Shown here: one piece after another, positions 1 through 26,125 of the stretch
How the letters are laid out: every line of letters starts with the position of its first letter
Numbering within the stretch: position 1 is the first letter of the stretch
Source: a virus
Reading direction: 5' to 3' (one strand)
Virus record (IMG/VR): IMGVR_UViG_3300030106_000462
Span: 1-26,890 of that record
Length of the DNA: 26,890 nucleotides
Program-made: the position numbers and the translations under genes
Notes under the pieces: model-generated
Told to the model about the DNA's origin: nothing
Databases searched by the model: none
What the model saw: only the letters and a program-made list of their open reading frames with translations

Positions 1-549
1 AAAACAGTTATTAAAAATCTTGATGACTTTTTATTAAAACCATTAGGAGAGGCTTACTTTCAATGGAACATGCAGTTTTTTGAAGGTAATGTAGATGTGG
101 TAGGTGATTTAGAAGTTAAGGCAACTGGTACAAATAGTTTAATGCAGAAAGAAGTTAGAAGTCAAAGACTAACAATGTTTTTACAAACTGCACAAAATCC
201 AACTATTGCTCCATTTGTTAAAGTTTCTAAATTAATTAGTGAACTTGCCTATAGCTTAGACTTAGACCCTGATGAAATATTAAATGACCCAGAGGAAGCA
301 GCTATGATGGCATCAATTATAGGAATGCAAAATGCTGGACAAAACACAGGCGAAGAAACTGAACCCGGTGGTCAACAACCTACAGGTATGGGAGGTGCTA
401 GTAGAGTATCTCAAGGACCGGAAAGCGTTGGAGTTACAGGCACTGGCGGTGGCAACATCGGAATCGGAAATGTTCCGGTTGCAGGGGAAGATAGCTTCTC
501 TGGTACACTTAGAGGCTCTGCCCCAACAGGTCAAGGAGGCTCTGAATAG
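1..549 (+). CDS. Phage portal protein, C-terminal part (5' end outside window)
   Basis: The frame is open from the first base, so this is the 3' end of a longer gene; about 182 residues are visible. The portal is the dodecameric ring at the capsid vertex through which DNA enters and leaves. The segment with PLGEAYFQWNMQFFEG, followed by a helical stretch (QKEVRSQRLTMFLQTAQNP) and a SELAYSLDLDPDEI element, resembles the end of podovirus portal proteins. The last 65 or so residues change to a Gly/Thr/Ser/Gln-rich, low-complexity tail. That tail is exactly where a second reading frame encodes another protein (332-562), so its odd composition and higher GC may be forced by the overlap. It sits just before EF-hand, scaffold and capsid genes, the expected place. 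Portal is fairly sure from context and motif; the exact family cannot be settled from a fragment. Confidence 0.8.
   Translation, partial: KTVIKNLDDFLLKPLGEAYFQWNMQFFEGNVDVVGDLEVKATGTNSLMQKEVRSQRLTMFLQTAQNPTIAPFVKVSKLISELAYSLDLDPDEILNDPEEAAMMASIIGMQNAGQNTGEETEPGGQQPTGMGGASRVSQGPESVGVTGTGGGNIGIGNVPVAGEDSFSGTLRGSAPTGQGGSE
321..324 (+). promoter_or_regulatory. Internal Shine-Dalgarno (AGGA) for the overlapping gene
   Basis: AGGA lies inside the portal coding region, 7 bases before the ATG at 332. In that frame a TAG at 320-322 closes the upstream reading, so 332 is the first available ATG. This supports independent initiation of the nested gene. Confidence 0.55.
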
Positions 550-562
550 AATAGAGGAATAA
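332..562 (+). CDS. Small helical protein overprinted in the portal gene's 3' end
   Basis: A 76-residue protein read in the +1 frame relative to the portal, sharing 218 bases with it. It looks like a real protein. Residues 1-16 are polar; residues 17-75 form amphipathic helices with a VWEVLVEYLKDR segment, an ATSESEMFRLQGKI segment and a closing LPQQVKEALNRIEE. From memory, short proteins with the pattern W-x-x-L-x-x-Y-L-x-x-R ... E-M-x-R-L-Q-G-x-I often follow portal genes in phages, usually without so deep an overlap. Its role is unknown. An AGGA site precedes the ATG, and its last codons contain the ribosome site of the next gene, giving tight coupling. The alternative is that it is a fortuitous open frame, but its composition argues against that. 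It could also be joined to the portal by frameshifting; no slippery site was obvious. Confidence 0.75.
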   Translation: MLDKTQAKKLNPVVNNLQVWEVLVEYLKDRKALELQALAVATSESEMFRLQGKIASLVHLEALPQQVKEALNRIEE

Positions 563-2670: not shown

Positions 2671-3654
2671 ATGGCTCAATATTTTGAACCGTCAACTGAT
2701 ACTGATGCAAACTTTGCAAACTCCGTAAGTGGACAAACTAATAGTTTCTTTTTACCTTCGATTTACTCTAAAAAGGTTTTAAACTTTTTCAGAAAAGCAT
2801 CGGTGGTTGAAGCTATTACTAACACCGACTATGCCGGTGAAATATCTGCTTATGGAGACTCTGTAAAGATTATCAAAGAACCTGTAATCTCTGTATCGGA
2901 TTACACTAGGGGTTCTGATACTACTGCTACTAAATTAACTGACCAAGAGTTAACTTTAGTTGTGGATAGTGCAAAGGCTTTCAAATTCATCGTAGATGAT
3001 ATTGAAACTAATATGTCACACGTTAACTTCAAAGAAGTAGCAACTTCTTCTGCAGCTTACGCATTAAGAGATTCTTATGATGCTGCAGTAATTGCTGCTA
3101 TGTTCTCTGGAGTGTCTACATCTTCACCTGACCACGTTTTAGGTGCAGATGCTTCTGCTGCCACTCAAACTATGGCACAGCACCAAGGTGGCTCTAACTC
3201 TATCGACCTTACAGGTTCTGATGGTACTGGAGCTGACCCTCTTGACGTAATGGCATTTATGGCTAAATTGTTAGATGAGCAAAGTGTTCCTGAAGAAGGA
3301 AGATGGTTCGTTGCACCACCTTCGTTCTACAATGAACTTTCTCAATCTGGCTCTAAGTTATTGTCTGTAGACTTTAACGCAGGTCAAGGCTCTATAAGAA
3401 ATGGTCTTGTATCTAGTGGTAAACTAAGAGGATTTGACATGTACAAATCTAATAATGTTGCTGCTGCTAGTACAGCTTCCGGCAAAATTCTTGCTGGTCA
3501 CATTTCTTCTACTGCAACTGCTCAAACAATCATCTCAACTGAGGTTCTTAGAGACCCTAGTTCTTTTGGTGATATTGTTAGAGGACTGCACGTATACGGA
3601 GCAAAGGTCCTTAGACCAGAAGCTTTAGTATCTGCTTTTTACGCAATAGACTAA
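2671..3654 (+). CDS. Major capsid protein
   Basis: 327 residues, the size expected for a podovirus coat protein of the HK97 fold. The N-terminal arm (1-30) is polar. It is followed by SIYSKKVLNFFRKASVVEAI (N-arm to E-loop region), a Gly/Asp/Ser-rich part with SAYGDSVKIIKEPVISVSDY, a helix ending in DSYDAAVIAAMFSG, and a C-terminal P-domain-like segment with EEGRWFVAPPSFYNEL. The WFVAPPSFY motif (an arm before 'x-P-x-x-Y') is common in coat proteins of phages with T7-like capsids. Codon use shifts visibly toward C-ending codons (AAC, GAC, TTC), as expected for a very highly expressed gene. AGGAG lies upstream of the ATG and a strong terminator follows directly. Confidence 0.9.
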   Translation: MAQYFEPSTDTDANFANSVSGQTNSFFLPSIYSKKVLNFFRKASVVEAITNTDYAGEISAYGDSVKIIKEPVISVSDYTRGSDTTATKLTDQELTLVVDSAKAFKFIVDDIETNMSHVNFKEVATSSAAYALRDSYDAAVIAAMFSGVSTSSPDHVLGADASAATQTMAQHQGGSNSIDLTGSDGTGADPLDVMAFMAKLLDEQSVPEEGRWFVAPPSFYNELSQSGSKLLSVDFNAGQGSIRNGLVSSGKLRGFDMYKSNNVAAASTASGKILAGHISSTATAQTIISTEVLRDPSSFGDIVRGLHVYGAKVLRPEALVSAFYAID

Positions 3655-3709: not shown

Positions 3710-3916
3710 ATGTACGGAATGGACAAAAAGAAAAAAAAGAAAATGATGGGTGGTGGTTACATGGCTAGAAAAGAAATGATGTACGGTGGCTCATCTAAAA
3801 GAATGAAAAAAGCTCATGGTGGTGGAATTCATTACTATGACTCAATAGAAGATAAAGAAAGAAAGTGTAATGCTATGGTAGGTATGAACACTATGAAAAG
3901 CTCTACAGATAAATAA
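3710..3916 (+). CDS. Small Lys/Met/Gly-rich basic protein
   Basis: 68 residues. The N-terminal 40 are strongly basic and glycine/methionine-rich (a six-lysine run, MMGGG, MMYGG), and the rest is polar with a HYYDS element. AGAGG at 3700-3704 lies 5 bases before the ATG. It stands alone just after the capsid terminator and couples to the next gene through TAATG. Similar short proteins of this look are common in marine phage structural regions. The role is unknown; a DNA- or RNA-binding head component or a capsid decoration peptide are guesses from charge and place. Confidence 0.75.
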   Translation: MYGMDKKKKKKMMGGGYMARKEMMYGGSSKRMKKAHGGGIHYYDSIEDKERKCNAMVGMNTMKSSTDK

Positions 3917-4062
3917 TGCAAGTAGAAGCACCAAAAGGTTATCACTGGATGAAGTCTGGAAAAAGCTACAAGCTTATGAAAGACCCTAAAGGTGGTTACA
4001 AACCTCATAAAGGAGCTAGTAAAAAAGCTAGTTTTCAAATACAAAAAATTCATAAAAAATAA
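3916..4062 (+). CDS. Tiny basic protein (48 aa) between capsid and tail-adaptor genes
   Basis: 48 residues, opening MQVEAPKGYHWMKSGKSYKL and continuing with a K-D-P-K-G-G-Y-K-P-H-K-G element and a Lys/His-rich end. It starts on the A of the previous stop (TAATG at 3914-3918) and ends on the A of the next start (TAATG at 4060-4064). With no recognisable ribosome site it is probably translated by termination-reinitiation. From memory, short proteins with APKGYHWM-like starts recur in marine phage genomes at this place. The function is unknown; with the preceding basic protein it may act in the capsid. The exact fit between two neighbours and a coherent composition make it a real gene. Confidence 0.75.
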   Translation: MQVEAPKGYHWMKSGKSYKLMKDPKGGYKPHKGASKKASFQIQKIHKK

Positions 4063-6445: not shown

Positions 6446-9400
6446 ATGGCACAAACATACACAAGACAGAGCTCATTTTCAGATGGCGATACTATAACTG
6501 CAGCTTTGTTTAATGATGAATATAATCAGTTAGTAAATGCTTTCACTTACTCTTCAAGTAGTGCAAGTTCTACTGGACACCGACACGATGGTACTGCAGG
6601 TCAAGGTGGTAATATTCATACTATTGGTGATTTAGATTTTTTAAATAAAATAGTTGTAGACAGCACAAACAATAGATGGGGATTTTATGTAGAAGTTTCT
6701 TCTTCTGCAGTTGAACAAATAAGATTACAAGACGGTGCTTTACTTCCAGTTACTGATAGTGATGTTGATTTAGGAACAAGTTCTTTATATTTTAAAGATG
6801 CTTATATAGATTCAATTACAACTACAGGTAATGTATCTGTAGGGGGTAATTTAGATGTTACAGGAACAATAGATTTTAGTGATTCAGCAATTACTAATGT
6901 AGGTAGTATTCAATTAGACAGTATTGCTGGTGATGCAGATTCAGATACTTCAATAACTTTTAGTGGCTCAGACGTTATTACTATAGCTGCTGGAGGAGCT
7001 AATCAAGTTACATTTACTAATGGAGCAATAGTACCTTCTACAGATAACGATATAGATTTAGGTACAAGCTCTGCTGAATTTAAAGATGCTTACTTTGATG
7101 GCACAGTAACTACTGATGCTCTTGTTGCAGATACTGCTGATATTAATGGTGGTACTGTAGATGGAGCAATAATTGGTGGTTCAAGTGCTGCAGCTATTAC
7201 AGGTACAGCAATTACAGGTACAAGTTTTGTTATTGGTTCAGCAGATATTAGTGAAGCTGAATTAGAAACTATTGATGGAGTTACTGCTGGAACAGTAGCA
7301 GCTTCTAAAGCAGTTGTAGTAGATAGCAATAAAGATATTGCAAGTTTTAGAAACATTACACTTACTGGAGAATTAGACGCAGGTTCATTAGATGTATCAG
7401 GTGATGCAGATATAGACGGTACTTTAGAAACAGACGCATTATCTATAAATGGTACAGCAGTCACAAGTACCGCAGCCGAACTAAATATACTTGATGGAGT
7501 CACAGCTACAGCTACAGAGTTAAACTTAATAGATGGAGTCACGGCTACAACTGCAGAACTTAACATACTTGATGGTGTCACTAGTACAGCAGCAGAGTTA
7601 AATATTCTTGATGGAGTTACATCAACTGCAGCAGAATTAAATATATTAGATGGTGTTACTAGCACAACAGCAGAACTCAATATTCTTGATGGTGTTACTG
7701 CAAGTGCTGCAGACATTAATCTTATAGATGGAATTACTAACGGAACAGTAATAGCAAGTAAAGCTATTATAACAGATGCAAACAAAGATATAACTGGTGG
7801 TAGAAATATTACTATTAGTGGTGAGCTTGATGCAGCTACATTAGACATTAGTGGCGATGCAGATATAGATGGAACATTAGAAGCCGATGCAATTACTATT
7901 GGTGGAGTTACATTGGCAGAAACTATTTCTGATACTGTAGGAGCTATGGTTTCATCTAATACAGAAACTAATATAACAGTTTCTTATGATGATTCAGATA
8001 ATACTTTAGACTTTGTAATTGGCACACTTAACCAGGATACTACAGGTACAGCAGAATTAGCTACAACAGTAACAGTTTCTGCTAATAACAGTACAGACGA
8101 AACAATTTTTCCTGTATTTGTTGATGGTGCTACAGGAACTCAAGGATTAGAAACTGATACAGGATTTACTTATAATCCTAGTTCAGGAAATTTAGTTATA
8201 GGGGGTTCTTTAACTGCTGCTAGTTTAGATATATCTGGAGATGTTGATGTTGATGGTACACTTGAGGCAGATGCTATAACAGTTAATGGTACAACTTTAG
8301 CTGAAACTATTTCTGATACTGTTGGAGCTATGGTTGGTTCTAATACTGAAACAGGCATTACAGTCACTTATGAAGATGGTGATAATACTTTAGATTTTGC
8401 ACTAGGAGCTGCTCAAACTACAATTACATCTTTACTAGCTACTGATATTAAAATTGGTGAAGACGACCAAACTAAAATAGATTTTGAAACTGCAGATGAA
8501 ATACATTTTTATGCAGCTAATGTAGAGCAAGTATATTTAGGAGACAATATTTTTGGTCCACAATCTGATAGTGATGTAGACTTAGGTTCAAGTTCAGTAA
8601 GATGGAAAGATGCTTATGTTGATTCAATAACTGTTACAGGTGAAGTAGATGGTGCAAGTTTAGATATTAGTGGTGATGCTGATATTGATGGAACTTTAGA
8701 AGCTGATGCAATTACTATTGGTGGTGTGACACTAGCTGAAACAATTCAAGACACAGTGGGAGCTATGGTTAGCTCAAATACTGAGTCAGGTATTACTGTA
8801 ACTTATCAAGATGGTGATGGTACATTAGATTTTTCAGTATCGGGTGCAGCAGTTACTTCTATTGCTGATGCTGATGCTGATACTAAAATTCAAGTAGAAG
8901 AAAGTTCTGATGAAGATACTATTAGATTTGATATAGCAGGTGCAGAAGACTTTACTATGACTGCTAACAGCTTTAATGTTTTATCTGGTAGTAAAATTGA
9001 TTTAAATGGTACAGAACTTATTCTTGATGATGACGGTGATACTTCTATTACTGCAGATACAGACGACCAAATAGATTTTAAAATTGGTGGTACAGATGTT
9101 GCTACTTTGACTGCTGGAACTTTAAAAGTAGTCAATACAGGTAATACCGACACTCTAATTTTAGAATCTACTGATGCTGATGCAAATACTGGTCCAGTAA
9201 TGGTTCTTCATAGAAATTCAGCTTCACCAGCAGAAGGAGATTTGGCTGGAGAAATAAGATTTGATTCAGAAGATACAGCAGGTAATCAAACAACTATTGC
9301 AAAAATACAAGGCATATTAGGGCATCCCAATCATGGTGAATCTTATGCCGAAGATGGAAGATTAACTTTTAGTATTATAAAAGATGCAAGTTTAACTGAA

Positions 9401-10222
9401 GTTATAAGGATATCTGAAGATGCAAGAGTTGGGATTGGTACTAATGACCCTGCACAAAATTTACATATTCATTGTGATAGTGGTGATGAAGGTATTCTTT
9501 TAAAAAGCACAGGTAATACATCCAATGCTCTTACTATAGATGCTAATAGAAGTAGTGCAGGTGGAGCATTAGGTGAAATTCGTGGTTTATGGAATGGCAC
9601 AGAAGTTGCTCGTATGGTATTTAGAGGTGGTGATGATACTACTAACAAAGATGATGGTTTTATAACATTTGCTACGTCAACTGCTGATAATATTTCAGAA
9701 AGAATGAGAATAAATAAAACAGGATATGTGATGATAAACACCACAAGTCTTCATTCAACTAACGCTAGATTGTATGTAAATGGTGCAAATAGTTCTGTTG
9801 CGGGAATAGCTGTTTTGAATGACAATGACTCAGGTACTATTTATTCTATGTATGTTTTAGACTCAAGTGGTAGTTTAATTGGTGGTATATCTAACAATGG
9901 CAGCAGTACAACTTTTGCTACATCATCAGACTATAGATTAAAAGAAAATATTAACTATGATTGGAATGGCACAGAAAAACTCAAACAATTAAAACCAGCA
10001 CAGTTTAATTTTATAAATAATGGTGATGAAACTGTAGAAGGTTTTATTGCACATGAAACAGATAGTATTGCACCTTATGCTGTAGTCGGAGAAAAAGACG
10101 GTGAAGAAATGCAAAGTATGGATTATGGAAGAATTACACCAATACTTGTTAAAGCAATACAAGAACAACAAGAACAAATTGAAGCTTTACAAGCTGAAAT
10201 TAACACACTCAAAGGAGAATAA
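6446..10222 (+). CDS. Long repetitive tail fibre with C-terminal S74 chaperone domain
   Basis: 1258 residues. The N-terminus (SFSDGDTITAALFNDEYNQL, then a Ser-rich run and GHRHDGTAGQGGNI) is a common virion-attachment segment. The shaft is beta-rich and repetitive: three D-x-D-x-DLG-[TS]-SS ... KDAY segments (about residues 100, 200, 710), seven 13-residue units (341-431) and three 43-residue units (466-508, 594-636, 739-781). The C-terminus is an intramolecular chaperone auto-processing domain of peptidase S74 type: SDYRLKENI at 1161-1169, with the Ser1161/Lys1166 pair expected to cut just before Ser1161. The protein ends in a coiled coil (EQQEQIEALQAEINTL) that would trimerise it. So the mature fibre should lose about 98 residues. 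The region just before the chaperone (about 1040-1160) is the likely receptor-binding tip. Confidence 0.85.
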   Translation: MAQTYTRQSSFSDGDTITAALFNDEYNQLVNAFTYSSSSASSTGHRHDGTAGQGGNIHTIGDLDFLNKIVVDSTNNRWGFYVEVSSSAVEQIRLQDGALLPVTDSDVDLGTSSLYFKDAYIDSITTTGNVSVGGNLDVTGTIDFSDSAITNVGSIQLDSIAGDADSDTSITFSGSDVITIAAGGANQVTFTNGAIVPSTDNDIDLGTSSAEFKDAYFDGTVTTDALVADTADINGGTVDGAIIGGSSAAAITGTAITGTSFVIGSADISEAELETIDGVTAGTVAASKAVVVDSNKDIASFRNITLTGELDAGSLDVSGDADIDGTLETDALSINGTAVTSTAAELNILDGVTATATELNLIDGVTATTAELNILDGVTSTAAELNILDGVTSTAAELNILDGVTSTTAELNILDGVTASAADINLIDGITNGTVIASKAIITDANKDITGGRNITISGELDAATLDISGDADIDGTLEADAITIGGVTLAETISDTVGAMVSSNTETNITVSYDDSDNTLDFVIGTLNQDTTGTAELATTVTVSANNSTDETIFPVFVDGATGTQGLETDTGFTYNPSSGNLVIGGSLTAASLDISGDVDVDGTLEADAITVNGTTLAETISDTVGAMVGSNTETGITVTYEDGDNTLDFALGAAQTTITSLLATDIKIGEDDQTKIDFETADEIHFYAANVEQVYLGDNIFGPQSDSDVDLGSSSVRWKDAYVDSITVTGEVDGASLDISGDADIDGTLEADAITIGGVTLAETIQDTVGAMVSSNTESGITVTYQDGDGTLDFSVSGAAVTSIADADADTKIQVEESSDEDTIRFDIAGAEDFTMTANSFNVLSGSKIDLNGTELILDDDGDTSITADTDDQIDFKIGGTDVATLTAGTLKVVNTGNTDTLILESTDADANTGPVMVLHRNSASPAEGDLAGEIRFDSEDTAGNQTTIAKIQGILGHPNHGESYAEDGRLTFSIIKDASLTEVIRISEDARVGIGTNDPAQNLHIHCDSGDEGILLKSTGNTSNALTIDANRSSAGGALGEIRGLWNGTEVARMVFRGGDDTTNKDDGFITFATSTADNISERMRINKTGYVMINTTSLHSTNARLYVNGANSSVAGIAVLNDNDSGTIYSMYVLDSSGSLIGGISNNGSSTTFATSSDYRLKENINYDWNGTEKLKQLKPAQFNFINNGDETVEGFIAHETDSIAPYAVVGEKDGEEMQSMDYGRITPILVKAIQEQQEQIEALQAEINTLKGE
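7466..7738 (+). repeat. Seven tandem 13-residue (39-bp) repeats in the fibre shaft
   Basis: Seven consecutive units with consensus STAAELNILDGVT encode residues 341-431. Units 1, 4 and 5 are identical as protein but differ from each other at 6, 10 and 11 of 39 bases, all synonymous. Unit 7 is the most diverged (ASAADINLIDGIT). A similar half-unit, AELETIDGVT, lies upstream at about residue 273. Confidence 0.95.
7841..8788 (+). repeat. Three dispersed 129-bp (43-residue) repeats in the fibre
   Basis: Copies lie at 7841-7969, 8225-8353 and 8660-8788, each exactly 129 bases. All begin LDISGD-[AV]-D-[IV]-DGTLEADAIT and continue through TLAETI-x-DTVGAMV to SNTE. A partial fourth copy covers 7388-7441. 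The copies are in frame, similar in protein and more diverged in DNA. Spacers of 255 and 306 bases separate them, so the fibre looks like a string of larger modules, each with this element as a core. Confidence 0.9.
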
Positions 10223-22883: not shown

Positions 22884-23113
22884 TCCGTATTTTGAACACG
22901 GGCATTTAAACAAGATTCAATATAACTATGTATTTCATCAAGTTTAACTGTAGCTTCTCTTATGATAACCCGAAGATTTTCATAGTCTTGTCGGGATAGA
23001 TATTTTTTAAGTTTCGCTATATCAACTTTAGTTCTTTCAGTGACAAGGTTTCCACTTTTGTCATACAGTAATCTATAAGCTAAAAGTTGTGCTTCATTTC
23101 GTTTCGTTTTCAT
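22880..23113 (-). CDS. Small helical protein downstream of nrdB, unknown function
   Basis: 77 residues from the ATG at 23113, chosen because AGGA lies about 8 bases upstream; a TTG 15 bases earlier has no ribosome site. It is basic and helical, with KRNEAQLLAYRLLYDKSGNL, TKVDIAKLKKYLSRQDYENL and a Glu/Ile-rich helix. No metal or catalytic motif is visible. It overlaps the end of nrdB by 20 bases and is the last gene of the minus-strand operon. A role in nucleotide metabolism or its control is possible from context only. Confidence 0.7.
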   Translation of the reverse strand: MKTKRNEAQLLAYRLLYDKSGNLVTERTKVDIAKLKKYLSRQDYENLRVIIREATVKLDEIHSYIESCLNARVQNTD

Positions 23114-24086
23114 TGTTAAATCCTGCAAAGGTTAATTGTCCGTAATCACCTCTGAGTCCAGCTTTCTGATATGAAGTAGCTCTACCTTCAAAAAAGTTTT
23201 GATGTTCAACTCCCAACACATCGTCTAACCACATCAGAGGATTATCTTTCTGATTAAAGTTAGGTTTAAGTCCTAACTGTAATAATCTTCTATCGGCAAT
23301 GTATTTGTTATACGCATACATTTCCTCTTTGGTTAGCCCTTCTATATCTCCCATCTCAAATACTAAGTCAAGAAACTTTTCTTCAAGTTTTACCATCTCT
23401 CTACATATCTGATAAATTTCTTTTTTAAAGTCGTCTGTCCAGATGTCTAGATTTTCTTTGATAAATTCTCTAAATAATTTAGTCATAGCTTCTACATGTA
23501 AGCTTTCATCTTTGATAGAGTATGCCACAATCTGACACATGCCTTTCATCTTACCAAATCTTTGAAAGTTCATGAGTATAGCGAAGCTACTGAATAGCTG
23601 TAAGCCTTCCGTAAAGGCTGAATAAACGGCTAAAGCTTTGGCGATAGTCTTCTTATCAGACTTAATAGTTTTAAGGTCTGTAATGTACGCATGTTTGTCA
23701 GACATTTCTTCGTATTCAGCAAAAGCTTTGTATTCTATTTCAGGCATTCCAACAGTATCTAATAGTAAACTGTAGGCATGTTGATGGATTGCTTCCATGT
23801 TGCCAAAGGATAGCATCATCATTCTAGCTTCTGGAAGTTTGAAAAGTTGCATATACTTTTCTACATAACCTGAAGCAACATCTACATCTGACTGAGTAAA
23901 CAATCTGAATATCTGAACTAAAAGATTCTTTTCTGAATCAGTTAATCTTTCATTCCAATCTTTTACATCAGTATGTAGTGGTACTGACATAGGATGCCAA
24001 TGCATTCTGTTTTGTAAATCGTAATACTCAAACATCCAACTATAGTCAAATGGTTTGTAGTAATCTCTAGTTTTTAATAAGCTCAT
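23094..24086 (-). CDS. nrdB: Ribonucleoside-diphosphate reductase, small (beta) subunit, class Ia
   Basis: 330 residues. It holds the di-iron tyrosyl radical cofactor needed by the large subunit to make deoxyribonucleotides. Metal ligands read in order: Asp67 (FTQSDVDVA), Glu98 and His101 (NMEAIHQHAY), Glu160 (FTEGLQLF), Glu194 and His197 (KDESLHVEAM). Tyr105 sits four residues after the first His, in the place of the radical tyrosine of E. coli (Tyr122), so a Tyr-radical enzyme is expected. The start is set at 24086 because GGAGG (24093-24097) lies 6 bases before it; a longer reading to 24119 has no support. It overlaps the zinc-ribbon gene by 20 bases and is in the same operon as the large subunit. 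Confidence 0.95.
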   Translation of the reverse strand: MSLLKTRDYYKPFDYSWMFEYYDLQNRMHWHPMSVPLHTDVKDWNERLTDSEKNLLVQIFRLFTQSDVDVASGYVEKYMQLFKLPEARMMMLSFGNMEAIHQHAYSLLLDTVGMPEIEYKAFAEYEEMSDKHAYITDLKTIKSDKKTIAKALAVYSAFTEGLQLFSSFAILMNFQRFGKMKGMCQIVAYSIKDESLHVEAMTKLFREFIKENLDIWTDDFKKEIYQICREMVKLEEKFLDLVFEMGDIEGLTKEEMYAYNKYIADRRLLQLGLKPNFNQKDNPLMWLDDVLGVEHQNFFEGRATSYQKAGLRGDYGQLTFAGFNNENETK

Positions 24087-24234
24087 TATTTTCCTCCTTT
24101 GGTAAATAAACCATAACAAGTGTTTTACAATTAGGGCAACTTAAATTAGTTTTAATAATGTAATCTTCGTTTTCTTCTTCAATATCGTGGTCTCCACCCC
24201 AAATTAATTTTGTATTACAGTGCCAACATTTCAT
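24067..24234 (-). CDS. Four-cysteine zinc-ribbon protein between the reductase subunits
   Basis: 55 residues. Two CxxC knuckles (Cys3/Cys6 and Cys33/Cys36) are separated by an acidic loop (GGDHDIEEENED), which fits a zinc ribbon. GAGGG at 24240-24244 lies 5 bases before the ATG at 24234, within the end of nrdA; a longer reading from upstream is less likely. The gene sits one base after nrdA and overlaps the start of nrdB by 20 bases. Such a tight place between the two reductase subunits suggests a related role (redox partner, assembly factor or regulator), but no such role is known to me. It may instead be a nucleic-acid binding protein. Confidence 0.8.
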   Translation of the reverse strand: MKCWHCNTKLIWGGDHDIEEENEDYIIKTNLSCPNCKTLVMVYLPKEENNELIKN

Positions 24235-24235
24235 A

Positions 24236-26125
24236 TTATCCCTCACAAGCAATACATTCCACATCATCTAATTTAATTCGTGGAACTTTAATGTTAACAT
24301 TCTCTGCAGCTTTAGCAGCATCAGACCTAAAATAATAAAGTGATTTTAATTTATTAGCACCATACCAATGAACATCACTAACATACTGTAAGTATTCATT
24401 ATGCTGTTCTTGATTCTGACTCGAATCAGGTAAGATAAAAAATAAATTAACACTTTGACTTTGACATATAAACTCTTGTCGTTTATACGCATGTTCGACA
24501 ACCCAGATTTGATTTATCTCATCTGCGGTTTTAAATACTTCTTTTTCTTCTTTTGTAAATAACTTTAACTCTTGTATTGACCCACGATTATCACTAATAT
24601 CTTGCCAAACTTTCTTACGCTTTTTAGGGTCGGTTACTTTTTTGTTGATGAGTTTTTCAAGGTTTTTGTTTTTGACTTTATAGCTTCCAGATAGCGTTTT
24701 ATGAGTGAAGACGTTAGCCCTGATGGGTTCGATGGATGGAGAAGTTCCCCCACAAATAATACTGGAACTAGCATTAGGTGCAACAGCAAGGAGATGGCAA
24801 TTCCTAAGACCAGAATTAGAAATATCAGGAGCTTCCCCCCGTAATACAGCAAGTCTTCGAGATGCACTAACAGCAGCTCCTTTGATGAACTTAAATAATT
24901 TATAGTTGATTCCAGTCGAGAAGATTCCCTCAAAGGAAATGTTCTGATTTTGTAAATAAGAATGAAAACCCATAGCACCAAGACCGATAGACCTTTCACG
25001 ATAGGCTGAATAAGCAGCTTTAGTAAAGCCTTCTTTACCTTCTTTAATATGTTTTTTAAATCTTTCAAAATTTGCATTATATCCTCCAAGTGAATTTAAA
25101 TCGACTGCATTTTCAATAAAGTGTTCTAGTACATTGTCAAGCATAGTGACTAAATCATCAATAAATTTTTCTTCTTTAGACCATTCATCAAAGTGTTCAA
25201 GGTTGACACTTGACAAACAACAGACTGCAGTTCTTTCTTCATTAGTAGGTAAAGTTATTTCTGAACATAAGTTGCTTTGTTTTACCTCTAAACCTAAATC
25301 TTTTTGTCCTTGTGGTAGAGCATCATTACAATTATCTATATTAACAATATAAGGCTCTCCAGTTTCTGCTCTAGCATCTAATAGTTTAGACCAGAGTTCT
25401 CTAGCTTTTATAATCTTAACAGCTTCATTTGTTTTCGGGTCAATCAATCGCCAATCGTCATCTTCTTCTACAGCTTTTAAAAATGCATTAGTTATGTTAA
25501 CTCCATTGTGTAAGTTCAAGCATTTTCTATTTACATCACCACCGGATTCTTTTCTCATTACCATGAACTCTTCAATCTCTGGATGTGATATATCCATGTA
25601 AGCAGCATAACTACCTCGTCTAGTCACTCCTTGATTAAAAGCTAACATCTGAGAGTCTACTACTTTCATAAATGGTATTGAGCCAGTAGACTTACTACCA
25701 TTACTTGTAGGTATACCATCACTTCTAATGTCTCCCCAATAACCTCCAATACCTCCACCAGAACTAGCTAACCAAATGTTTTCATCATAGTGGCTAGACA
25801 AACCTTCACGATTATCAGGAACATAATTAAGAAAACAACTGATAGGTAAACCTCTAGTTGTACCCCCATTAGAAAGAATAGGAGTAGAAAACATAAACCA
25901 AAGATTAGAAACATAATTATAAATTCTTTGAGCCATGTCAAAGTCAGTTTCTTCTTTAAATGTAGAAACAAATACTGAAGCTCTAGCAAAAGCTTCTTGT
26001 GGCGAAGTTTCGTTCTGCCATAAGTATCTATCTTGAAGAGTATCTAAACTAAACTTGTCTAGTTTTTTATCTCTGTCATAGTTTATAATTATTCCTAAAT
26101 AAGGATGTTCACCCTTTTTTTCCAT
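24236..26125 (-). CDS. nrdA: Ribonucleoside-diphosphate reductase, large (alpha) subunit, class Ia
   Basis: 629 residues, shorter than the usual E. coli-type protein (about 760) because the N-terminal ATP-cone is missing; it begins within the core helical region. It reduces ribonucleoside diphosphates. Key residues: Cys97 (LPISCFLN, partner Cys), Asn285/Cys287/Glu289 (NLCSEI, active site), Cys302 (AVCCLSSVNL, partner Cys), Tyr597-Tyr598 (SLYYF, radical path), and the C-terminal redox pair Cys624/Cys627 (ECIACEG). All catalytic parts are therefore present. GGAGG (26132-26136) lies 6 bases before the ATG. Lacking the cone, it should not be inhibited by dATP through that site, as in several phage enzymes. 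It shares the operon with nrdB, DUF3310 and an endonuclease. Confidence 0.95.
   Translation of the reverse strand: MEKKGEHPYLGIIINYDRDKKLDKFSLDTLQDRYLWQNETSPQEAFARASVFVSTFKEETDFDMAQRIYNYVSNLWFMFSTPILSNGGTTRGLPISCFLNYVPDNREGLSSHYDENIWLASSGGGIGGYWGDIRSDGIPTSNGSKSTGSIPFMKVVDSQMLAFNQGVTRRGSYAAYMDISHPEIEEFMVMRKESGGDVNRKCLNLHNGVNITNAFLKAVEEDDDWRLIDPKTNEAVKIIKARELWSKLLDARAETGEPYIVNIDNCNDALPQGQKDLGLEVKQSNLCSEITLPTNEERTAVCCLSSVNLEHFDEWSKEEKFIDDLVTMLDNVLEHFIENAVDLNSLGGYNANFERFKKHIKEGKEGFTKAAYSAYRERSIGLGAMGFHSYLQNQNISFEGIFSTGINYKLFKFIKGAAVSASRRLAVLRGEAPDISNSGLRNCHLLAVAPNASSSIICGGTSPSIEPIRANVFTHKTLSGSYKVKNKNLEKLINKKVTDPKKRKKVWQDISDNRGSIQELKLFTKEEKEVFKTADEINQIWVVEHAYKRQEFICQSQSVNLFFILPDSSQNQEQHNEYLQYVSDVHWYGANKLKSLYYFRSDAAKAAENVNIKVPRIKLDDVECIACEG

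Follow-up and report, generated by a model that had tools for sequence, protein, structure and literature searches.

Evidence for a small gene encoded over the 3′ end of the portal gene in a SAR11-phage lineage

Dual coding in itself is a familiar feature of viruses. In the prevailing view, most overlapping genes combine an ancestral frame with a second one that arose de novo and usually has no remote homologues (PMC8227390, accessible part), and the +1 overlaps of virus reference genomes have a median length of 14 nt with an interquartile range of 8-26 (PMC8903798, accessible part). HMO-2011-type phages are described as a dominant and broadly distributed marine group (PMC9038755, accessible part). 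Directly after the portal gene of these and related phages lie stand-alone genes, such as AFV50589.1 of HMO-2011, gp56 of CRP-13, EVB79_104 of RHph_N3_13 and CHOED_090, which overlap the portal gene by about 0-95 nt and are mostly annotated as hypothetical. Here we describe a homologous gene, which we call S, that occupies the same place and has the same size as these genes (60-83 aa in 19 tandem loci). Unlike them, S lies 173-218 nt inside the portal gene in the lineage studied here and is unannotated.

Layout of the portal end and presence of S in relatives

The window, that is the whole stretch of DNA analysed, is an IMG/VR virus record of 26,890 bases that opens inside the portal gene. The 3′ end of this gene covers positions 1-549 on the plus strand (stop codon 547-549); it is open at the window start and its 5′ part lies beyond the window. 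We identified it as a portal by a profile match to the head-tail adaptor family phrog_332 (E = 5.3e-12) and by tblastn matches to annotated portals of Pelagibacter, Roseobacter and HMO-2011 phages. Gene S (332-562, plus strand; ATG at 332, TAA at 560-562) runs in the +1 frame relative to the portal and encodes a protein of 76 aa that is predicted to be all-helical. The initial annotation had proposed a second frame of 76 residues sharing 218 bases of the portal end and carrying its own AGGA site. These coordinates were exact: the two genes share 218 nt in the window, and AGGA is found on the plus strand at 321-324, within portal codons and 7 nt before the S start codon. The idea that S feeds into the ribosome site of the following gene (564-1637) also held, as AGAGGA at 553-558 (plus strand), the likely ribosome-binding site of that gene, lies inside the last S codons, and the S stop codon abuts the next ATG at 564. 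A local rise in GC content was likewise seen, with 52% in 332-549 compared to 32% in 1-331 upstream and 34% in the whole window.

Several other genes of the window were recorded. The gene at 564-1637 encodes 357 aa, and its C-terminal stretch GPGSEVSDSIPARLSDGEFVF matches profiles of tail tape-measure proteins (phrog_5448, E = 1.8e-8), although a tape measure would be much longer than this protein. Two tiny basic ORFs rich in Met, Lys and Gly (3710-3916 and 3916-4062) are located 3′ of the capsid gene, and a similar basic ORF of 45 aa directly follows the portal and S in HTVC115P. A protein of 1258 aa with many near-identical ELNILDGVT repeats, which we take to be a tail fibre, is encoded at 6446-10222. 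The minus strand at 23094-26125 holds two genes that in our estimation resemble the small and large subunits of ribonucleotide reductase.

In the 80 nearest viral contigs, the S frame was open with an ATG in every case and encoded 74-78 aa, although the portal stop codon moves. We then assembled loci from five viral-contig scans (best 80 per query each), 19 named phage records and the window; the same contig may recur across loci, so that distinct sequences were counted. A profile search detected S in 408 of the 414 loci with a visible portal stop. Among the six misses, two loci had been wrongly anchored and do carry S, while the other four contigs break off 51-131 nt beyond the portal stop. 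Thus, the search for the small protein next to portals, which had been proposed earlier, found S directly after or over the portal end in all 410 loci where it would be visible. A deep class with overlaps of 173-218 nt comprises 311 loci with 241 distinct ORFs, all of them in frame +1 and all 241 starting with ATG. Nine HMO-type loci with an apparent N-terminal extension of S were excluded from the initial 320 deep loci to give this set. In these nine loci (L194, L190, L205, L208, L218, L227, L243, L246 and L256), the +1 frame is open across the portal motif described below, and the S ORFs gain an apparent extension of 20-30 residues. Such ORFs are a trap for overlap counts and perhaps represent a half-way state.

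In HMO-2011, in the Roseobacter phages CRP-2, -13, -207, -212, -235, -738 and -3, and also in Rhizobium, Sinorhizobium, Vibrio, Pseudoalteromonas and Aeromonas phages, the portal is followed by a small gene, and the two overlap by no more than about 95 nt. Among 20 named portal-bearing records of the group, 14 have an annotated S gene (truncated in ctYwJ313) and six lack the annotation, namely all four Pelagibacter phages (HTVC033P, 103P, 104P and 115P), CRP-345 and Aeromonas phage 1233; the presence of S in HTVC103P rests on a tblastn match. S is missing from the four SAR11-phage records because it lies inside the portal gene. In CRP-345, S overlaps the portal by about 77 nt and falls in an annotation gap (3246-3464 of locus L094). 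In the literature without subscription that was covered on these phages, we found no description of a portal overlap or of virion proteomics; an earlier description may exist. The word 'overlap' does not occur in the accessible part of one study of HMO-2011-type phages (PMC9038755).

Coding information and constraint in the two frames

To relate the deep S frames to the stand-alone genes, a profile was built from 13 separate S genes of Roseobacter, Rhizobium, Aeromonas, Vibrio and Pseudoalteromonas phages. It matched the shared part of the S frame in 241 of 241 deep sequences (E < 1e-3) and in none of 482 portal-synonymous randomisations. A profile-profile comparison (hhalign) of deep with separate S, which still includes the nine extended HMO-type loci, gave a probability of 99.1 and E = 5.8e-19. 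Judged by these matches, S is a long-established gene whose homologues also stand alone, and it belongs to a family of small portal-following proteins of HMO-2011-type and related phages. When 51 S members were searched against Pfam, PHROGs and NCBIfam, no family exceeded the cut-off and weak matches were scattered; S of HMO-2011 matched phrog_1461 (function unknown) at E = 9e-4. Matches of S to FliJ, MIT, YscE/EscE and similar proteins were rejected as no better than short helical proteins would be expected to give, and a sequence search of the PDB with S returned designed helical repeats, Myb repeats and SarX only.

The portal frame was treated in the same way. Its tail contains a conserved motif of 21 codons, GTGGGNIGxGNVPxxGExxFS, which is also present in relatives without the deep overlap. 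A portal-tail profile made from 92 tails of loci without deep overlap matched 240 of 241 deep tails (205 of them at E < 1e-3) and none of 482 sequences in which the S codons had been randomised; under such randomisation the portal frame stayed open in only 5 of 4820 trials. Because both profiles match the real sequences and never the randomised ones, each frame holds its own information that is not forced by the other.

Substitution rates were determined in 109 independent pairs, picked greedily among nearest sequences after 2 of the 311 loci had been set aside because the motif was missing or the upstream region was short. In upstream portal codons, which served as control, dS was 0.184 and nonsynonymous rates were 0.017-0.018, where, as for all rates given here, single sites were classified, a transition weight of 3 was assumed and multiple hits were left uncorrected. 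Over the overlap, changes that are silent in the portal and alter S occurred at 0.071, which is 0.385 of control dS (interval 0.327-0.456). The dN/dS was 0.446 (0.387-0.501) for S and 0.886 (0.764-0.991) for the portal. S is therefore the more constrained frame of the pair. This two-frame comparison had been named beforehand as the test of the nested frame, and it showed S to be constrained, with no breaking stops in relatives.

The shared stretch can be divided into three parts on the plus strand. In the first (332-438), S-changing, portal-silent changes occurred at 0.072, compared to 0.179 for portal-changing, S-silent ones (0.97 of control dS), so that the two-frame rates indicate constraint on S only and a free linker in the portal. 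In the second (439-501), the respective rates were 0.069 and 0.050, the latter being 0.27 of control dS. Here both frames are constrained, and the portal motif GTGGGNIGIGNVPVAGEDSFS, kept in relatives without the deep overlap, is read over S residues around ATSESEMFRLQGK. In the last part (502-549), the rates were 0.071 and 0.224 (1.22 of control dS), and the sequence of the portal end is set by S only. The portal dN/dS was 0.518 (0.385-0.642) in the motif and 1.089 (0.909-1.266) in the linker. Both frames are thus under purifying selection within the shared stretch, the portal in its motif. According to the initial annotation, it is the second frame that would shape the tail of the portal. 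This applies to the linker and to the end, as changes that alter the portal occur there at the neutral rate, but not to the 21-codon motif, where the portal is held as well.

We considered whether the +1 frame could be a chance ORF that is forced open by the Gly/Thr/Pro-rich tail of a portal that alone is coded. These tails are indeed permissive: the +1 frame stayed open in 8213 of 48200 synonymous randomisations of the portal codons (17%; 241 distinct overlaps), and shuffled tails fitted the S profile just as well as real ones did. With the tail of the window itself, the frame was open in about 1-2.5% of such randomisations. However, the randomised frames never matched the S profile while all real ones did, S homologues exist as separate genes, and S-altering changes are cut to 0.39 of the control. 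The codon-phase-specific constraint refutes a chance ORF, to which we assign next to no probability. RNA structure or packaging signals, acting on portal silent sites with no second protein involved, would by themselves fit the suppression of silent changes. Yet this suppression is seen only at positions that change S, whereas outside the motif, S-silent, portal-changing positions show 0.97-1.22 of the neutral rate. This codon-phase pattern rules out RNA structure as the cause, and we hold such an explanation to be extremely improbable.

A Shine-Dalgarno match of at least 4 nt at a fitting distance preceded S in 67% of 251 distinct deep loci, compared to 22% after synonymous randomisation, and 82 of the 251 loci had no 4-nt match; this set of 251 includes the nine HMO-type loci. 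In 312 of 320 loci, a count that likewise includes these nine, an in-frame stop preceded the S start by at most eight codons. S would most likely be translated by internal initiation at its own AGGA and ATG, by ribosomes in addition to those reading the portal. Alternatively, the two frames could in principle be linked by a programmed +1 frameshift, so that a portal-S fusion would be made in place of a free small protein, and all deep loci are in the +1 frame. The Shine-Dalgarno enrichment and the close upstream stop favour internal initiation over such a fusion; moreover, S starts with ATG in each of the 241 distinct overlaps, and the stand-alone S genes of relatives are in frames +2 or 0. 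A frameshift product is therefore very unlikely. Taken together, we are highly confident that 332-562 of the window is a real protein-coding gene that is dual-coding with the portal 3′ end.

Predicted structure and possible role of S

The AF2 model of the window S protein was all-helical with a pLDDT of 94.2, in line with the helical protein proposed earlier, and has helices at residues 4-15, 17-39, 44-61 and 63-72. Its best viral structural match was A0A7S5RHX4, a protein of 70 aa (TM 0.86/0.93, E = 5e-3, 29% identity), which from its length and identity is probably the S protein of a Rhizobium phage. By the same reasoning, the third viral match, of 76 residues, is probably the S protein of CHOED. 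In these models, S shares the predicted helical fold with its family. When the model was compared to PDB folds, no match rose above the level usual for helical bundles.

In the AF2 model of a relative's portal, residues 658-742, comprising the whole tail, were below a pLDDT of 50, in a model that is weak overall (mean pLDDT 57, 29 sequences). The portal tail is thus predicted to be disordered, and it carries the one conserved motif of 21 residues.

S is predicted to be a four-helix protein. In HMO-2011-type and related podophages, its conserved gene immediately follows the portal. The SAR11-phage lineage to which the window belongs has this gene almost wholly within the portal 3′ end, in the +1 frame, and the portal tail outside the motif is a free linker whose sequence follows from S. 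The place of S between the portal and the scaffold/capsid genes is invariant. From this gene order, we tentatively propose that S might be a portal-vertex assembly factor, such as a portal chaperone or a head-completion protein, although we consider this doubtful. The head-completion protein gpW of phage lambda has a mixed fold; S is predicted to be all-helical and has no significant PDB match. The small helical chaperones YscE/EscE of type III secretion resemble S in fold (Z 6.2-6.5 over 53-68 residues), but their sequences are unrelated, this Z level is usual for helical bundles, and the likeness is no evidence of function.

Origin of the overlap and comparison with known systems

N4-like portals are distantly related to the portals of this group. 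In the portal tree with an N4-like root, the tandem CHOED/Aeromonas phages and Slicky01 are basal, and the HMO/CRP/Rhizobium phages (tandem to 95 nt overlap) are the sister of the SAR11-phage clade. The outgroup Pmp11 has a branch of 8.45 and its position was left out of use. The SAR11-phage clade is deep throughout with the exception of L144, L134, L140, L141 and L175, and the deep locus L131 is nested among tandem ones. A single clade of all deep loci was rejected (p = 5.6e-6), as was a clade of L144, L134, L140 and L141 without L131 (p = 9e-4), both groupings having been named after the tree was seen. On this tree, the overlap is a lineage-specific and changeable state that appears to have changed several times; the tail may also have recombined separately from the portal core. 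A comparison of two close relatives, the deep L131 and the tandem L134, showed both flanks to be collinear with about 77 and 68% nucleotide identity; the difference is confined to the interval of tail and S, which measures 312 nt in L131 and 495 nt in L134.

As both proteins have relatives encoded on separate DNA, neither frame is, on this sequence evidence, a de novo overprint. A de novo origin would leave one frame without homologues outside the overlap, whereas both frames match profiles built from loci without deep overlap.

Two routes to the overlap were weighed. In the first, the tandem state is ancestral, and the portal and S slid over each other in the ancestor of the SAR11 phages, with later returns to tandem. 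The basal position of the tandem CHOED/Aeromonas phages and Slicky01, together with a sister group that is tandem or overlaps by at most 95 nt, points in this direction. Two relic tests also failed to reveal remains of a former overlap in the tandem phages: the ability of tandem portal tails to encode S in the +1 frame gave z of about -0.8 to 2.0 compared to shuffled tails and was mostly off the overlap register, and the ability of tandem S proteins to encode the portal motif in the -1 frame scored within the shuffles. Furthermore, low-complexity tails take nearly any S-like +1 frame, which makes sliding more plausible. Such a route must however place two separately conserved protein segments on the same nucleotides, and intermediates of this process are unseen.

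In the second route, the overlap is ancestral, the motif was born as a -1 reading of S, and tandem loci arose by local duplication with one frame kept per copy. This accounts for both frames having separately encoded homologues. Codons for the S segment ATSEQEMYRxQGK can read GNIGTGNVPxPGE in the -1 frame, and the longer tail/S interval of the tandem form (by 183 nt) between the collinear flanks of L131 and L134 would also fit. In deep S proteins, the -1-frame compatibility with the motif was far above every shuffle for the window, HTVC033P, HTVC115P and L131, and reached only p = 0.04 for HTVC104P. On the other hand, S of 14 named phages in which the genes are apart or overlap by less than 100 nt had no special compatibility with the motif (p 0.03-0.93, uncorrected), none of 410 loci contained two S copies, and the basal phages are tandem. 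The negative relic tests and the lack of a two-copy locus lowered our estimate for this route. We therefore favour the tandem state as the older one, if only slightly better than evenly, and regard an ancestral overlap split by duplication as rather unlikely. With somewhat more assurance, we propose that two old and independently conserved proteins were brought onto the same nucleotides, that the locus switched between merged and separate states several times, and that an unconstrained linker of the portal carries the second gene.

S escapes annotation in all four SAR11-phage records covered, although it is present in every checked member of this marine phage group. As the tail of the portal is largely dictated by another gene, this matters for portal annotation and phylogeny. 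The set described here, with hundreds of merged sequences, named phages in which the overlap is intermediate (32-95 nt) and close relatives that have separate copies, lets one ask how long overlaps between two old proteins arise and dissolve. Like other same-strand +1 overlaps of viruses, the portal/S stretch yields two proteins in two frames; it differs from those summarised in the accessible part of PMC8903798 in its length of 218 nt and in that neither protein is a de novo product. With de novo overprinted genes, it shares dual coding with adaptive conflict, as described in the accessible part of PMC8227390. In contrast to such overprints, both protein segments of the portal/S overlap have separately encoded homologues.
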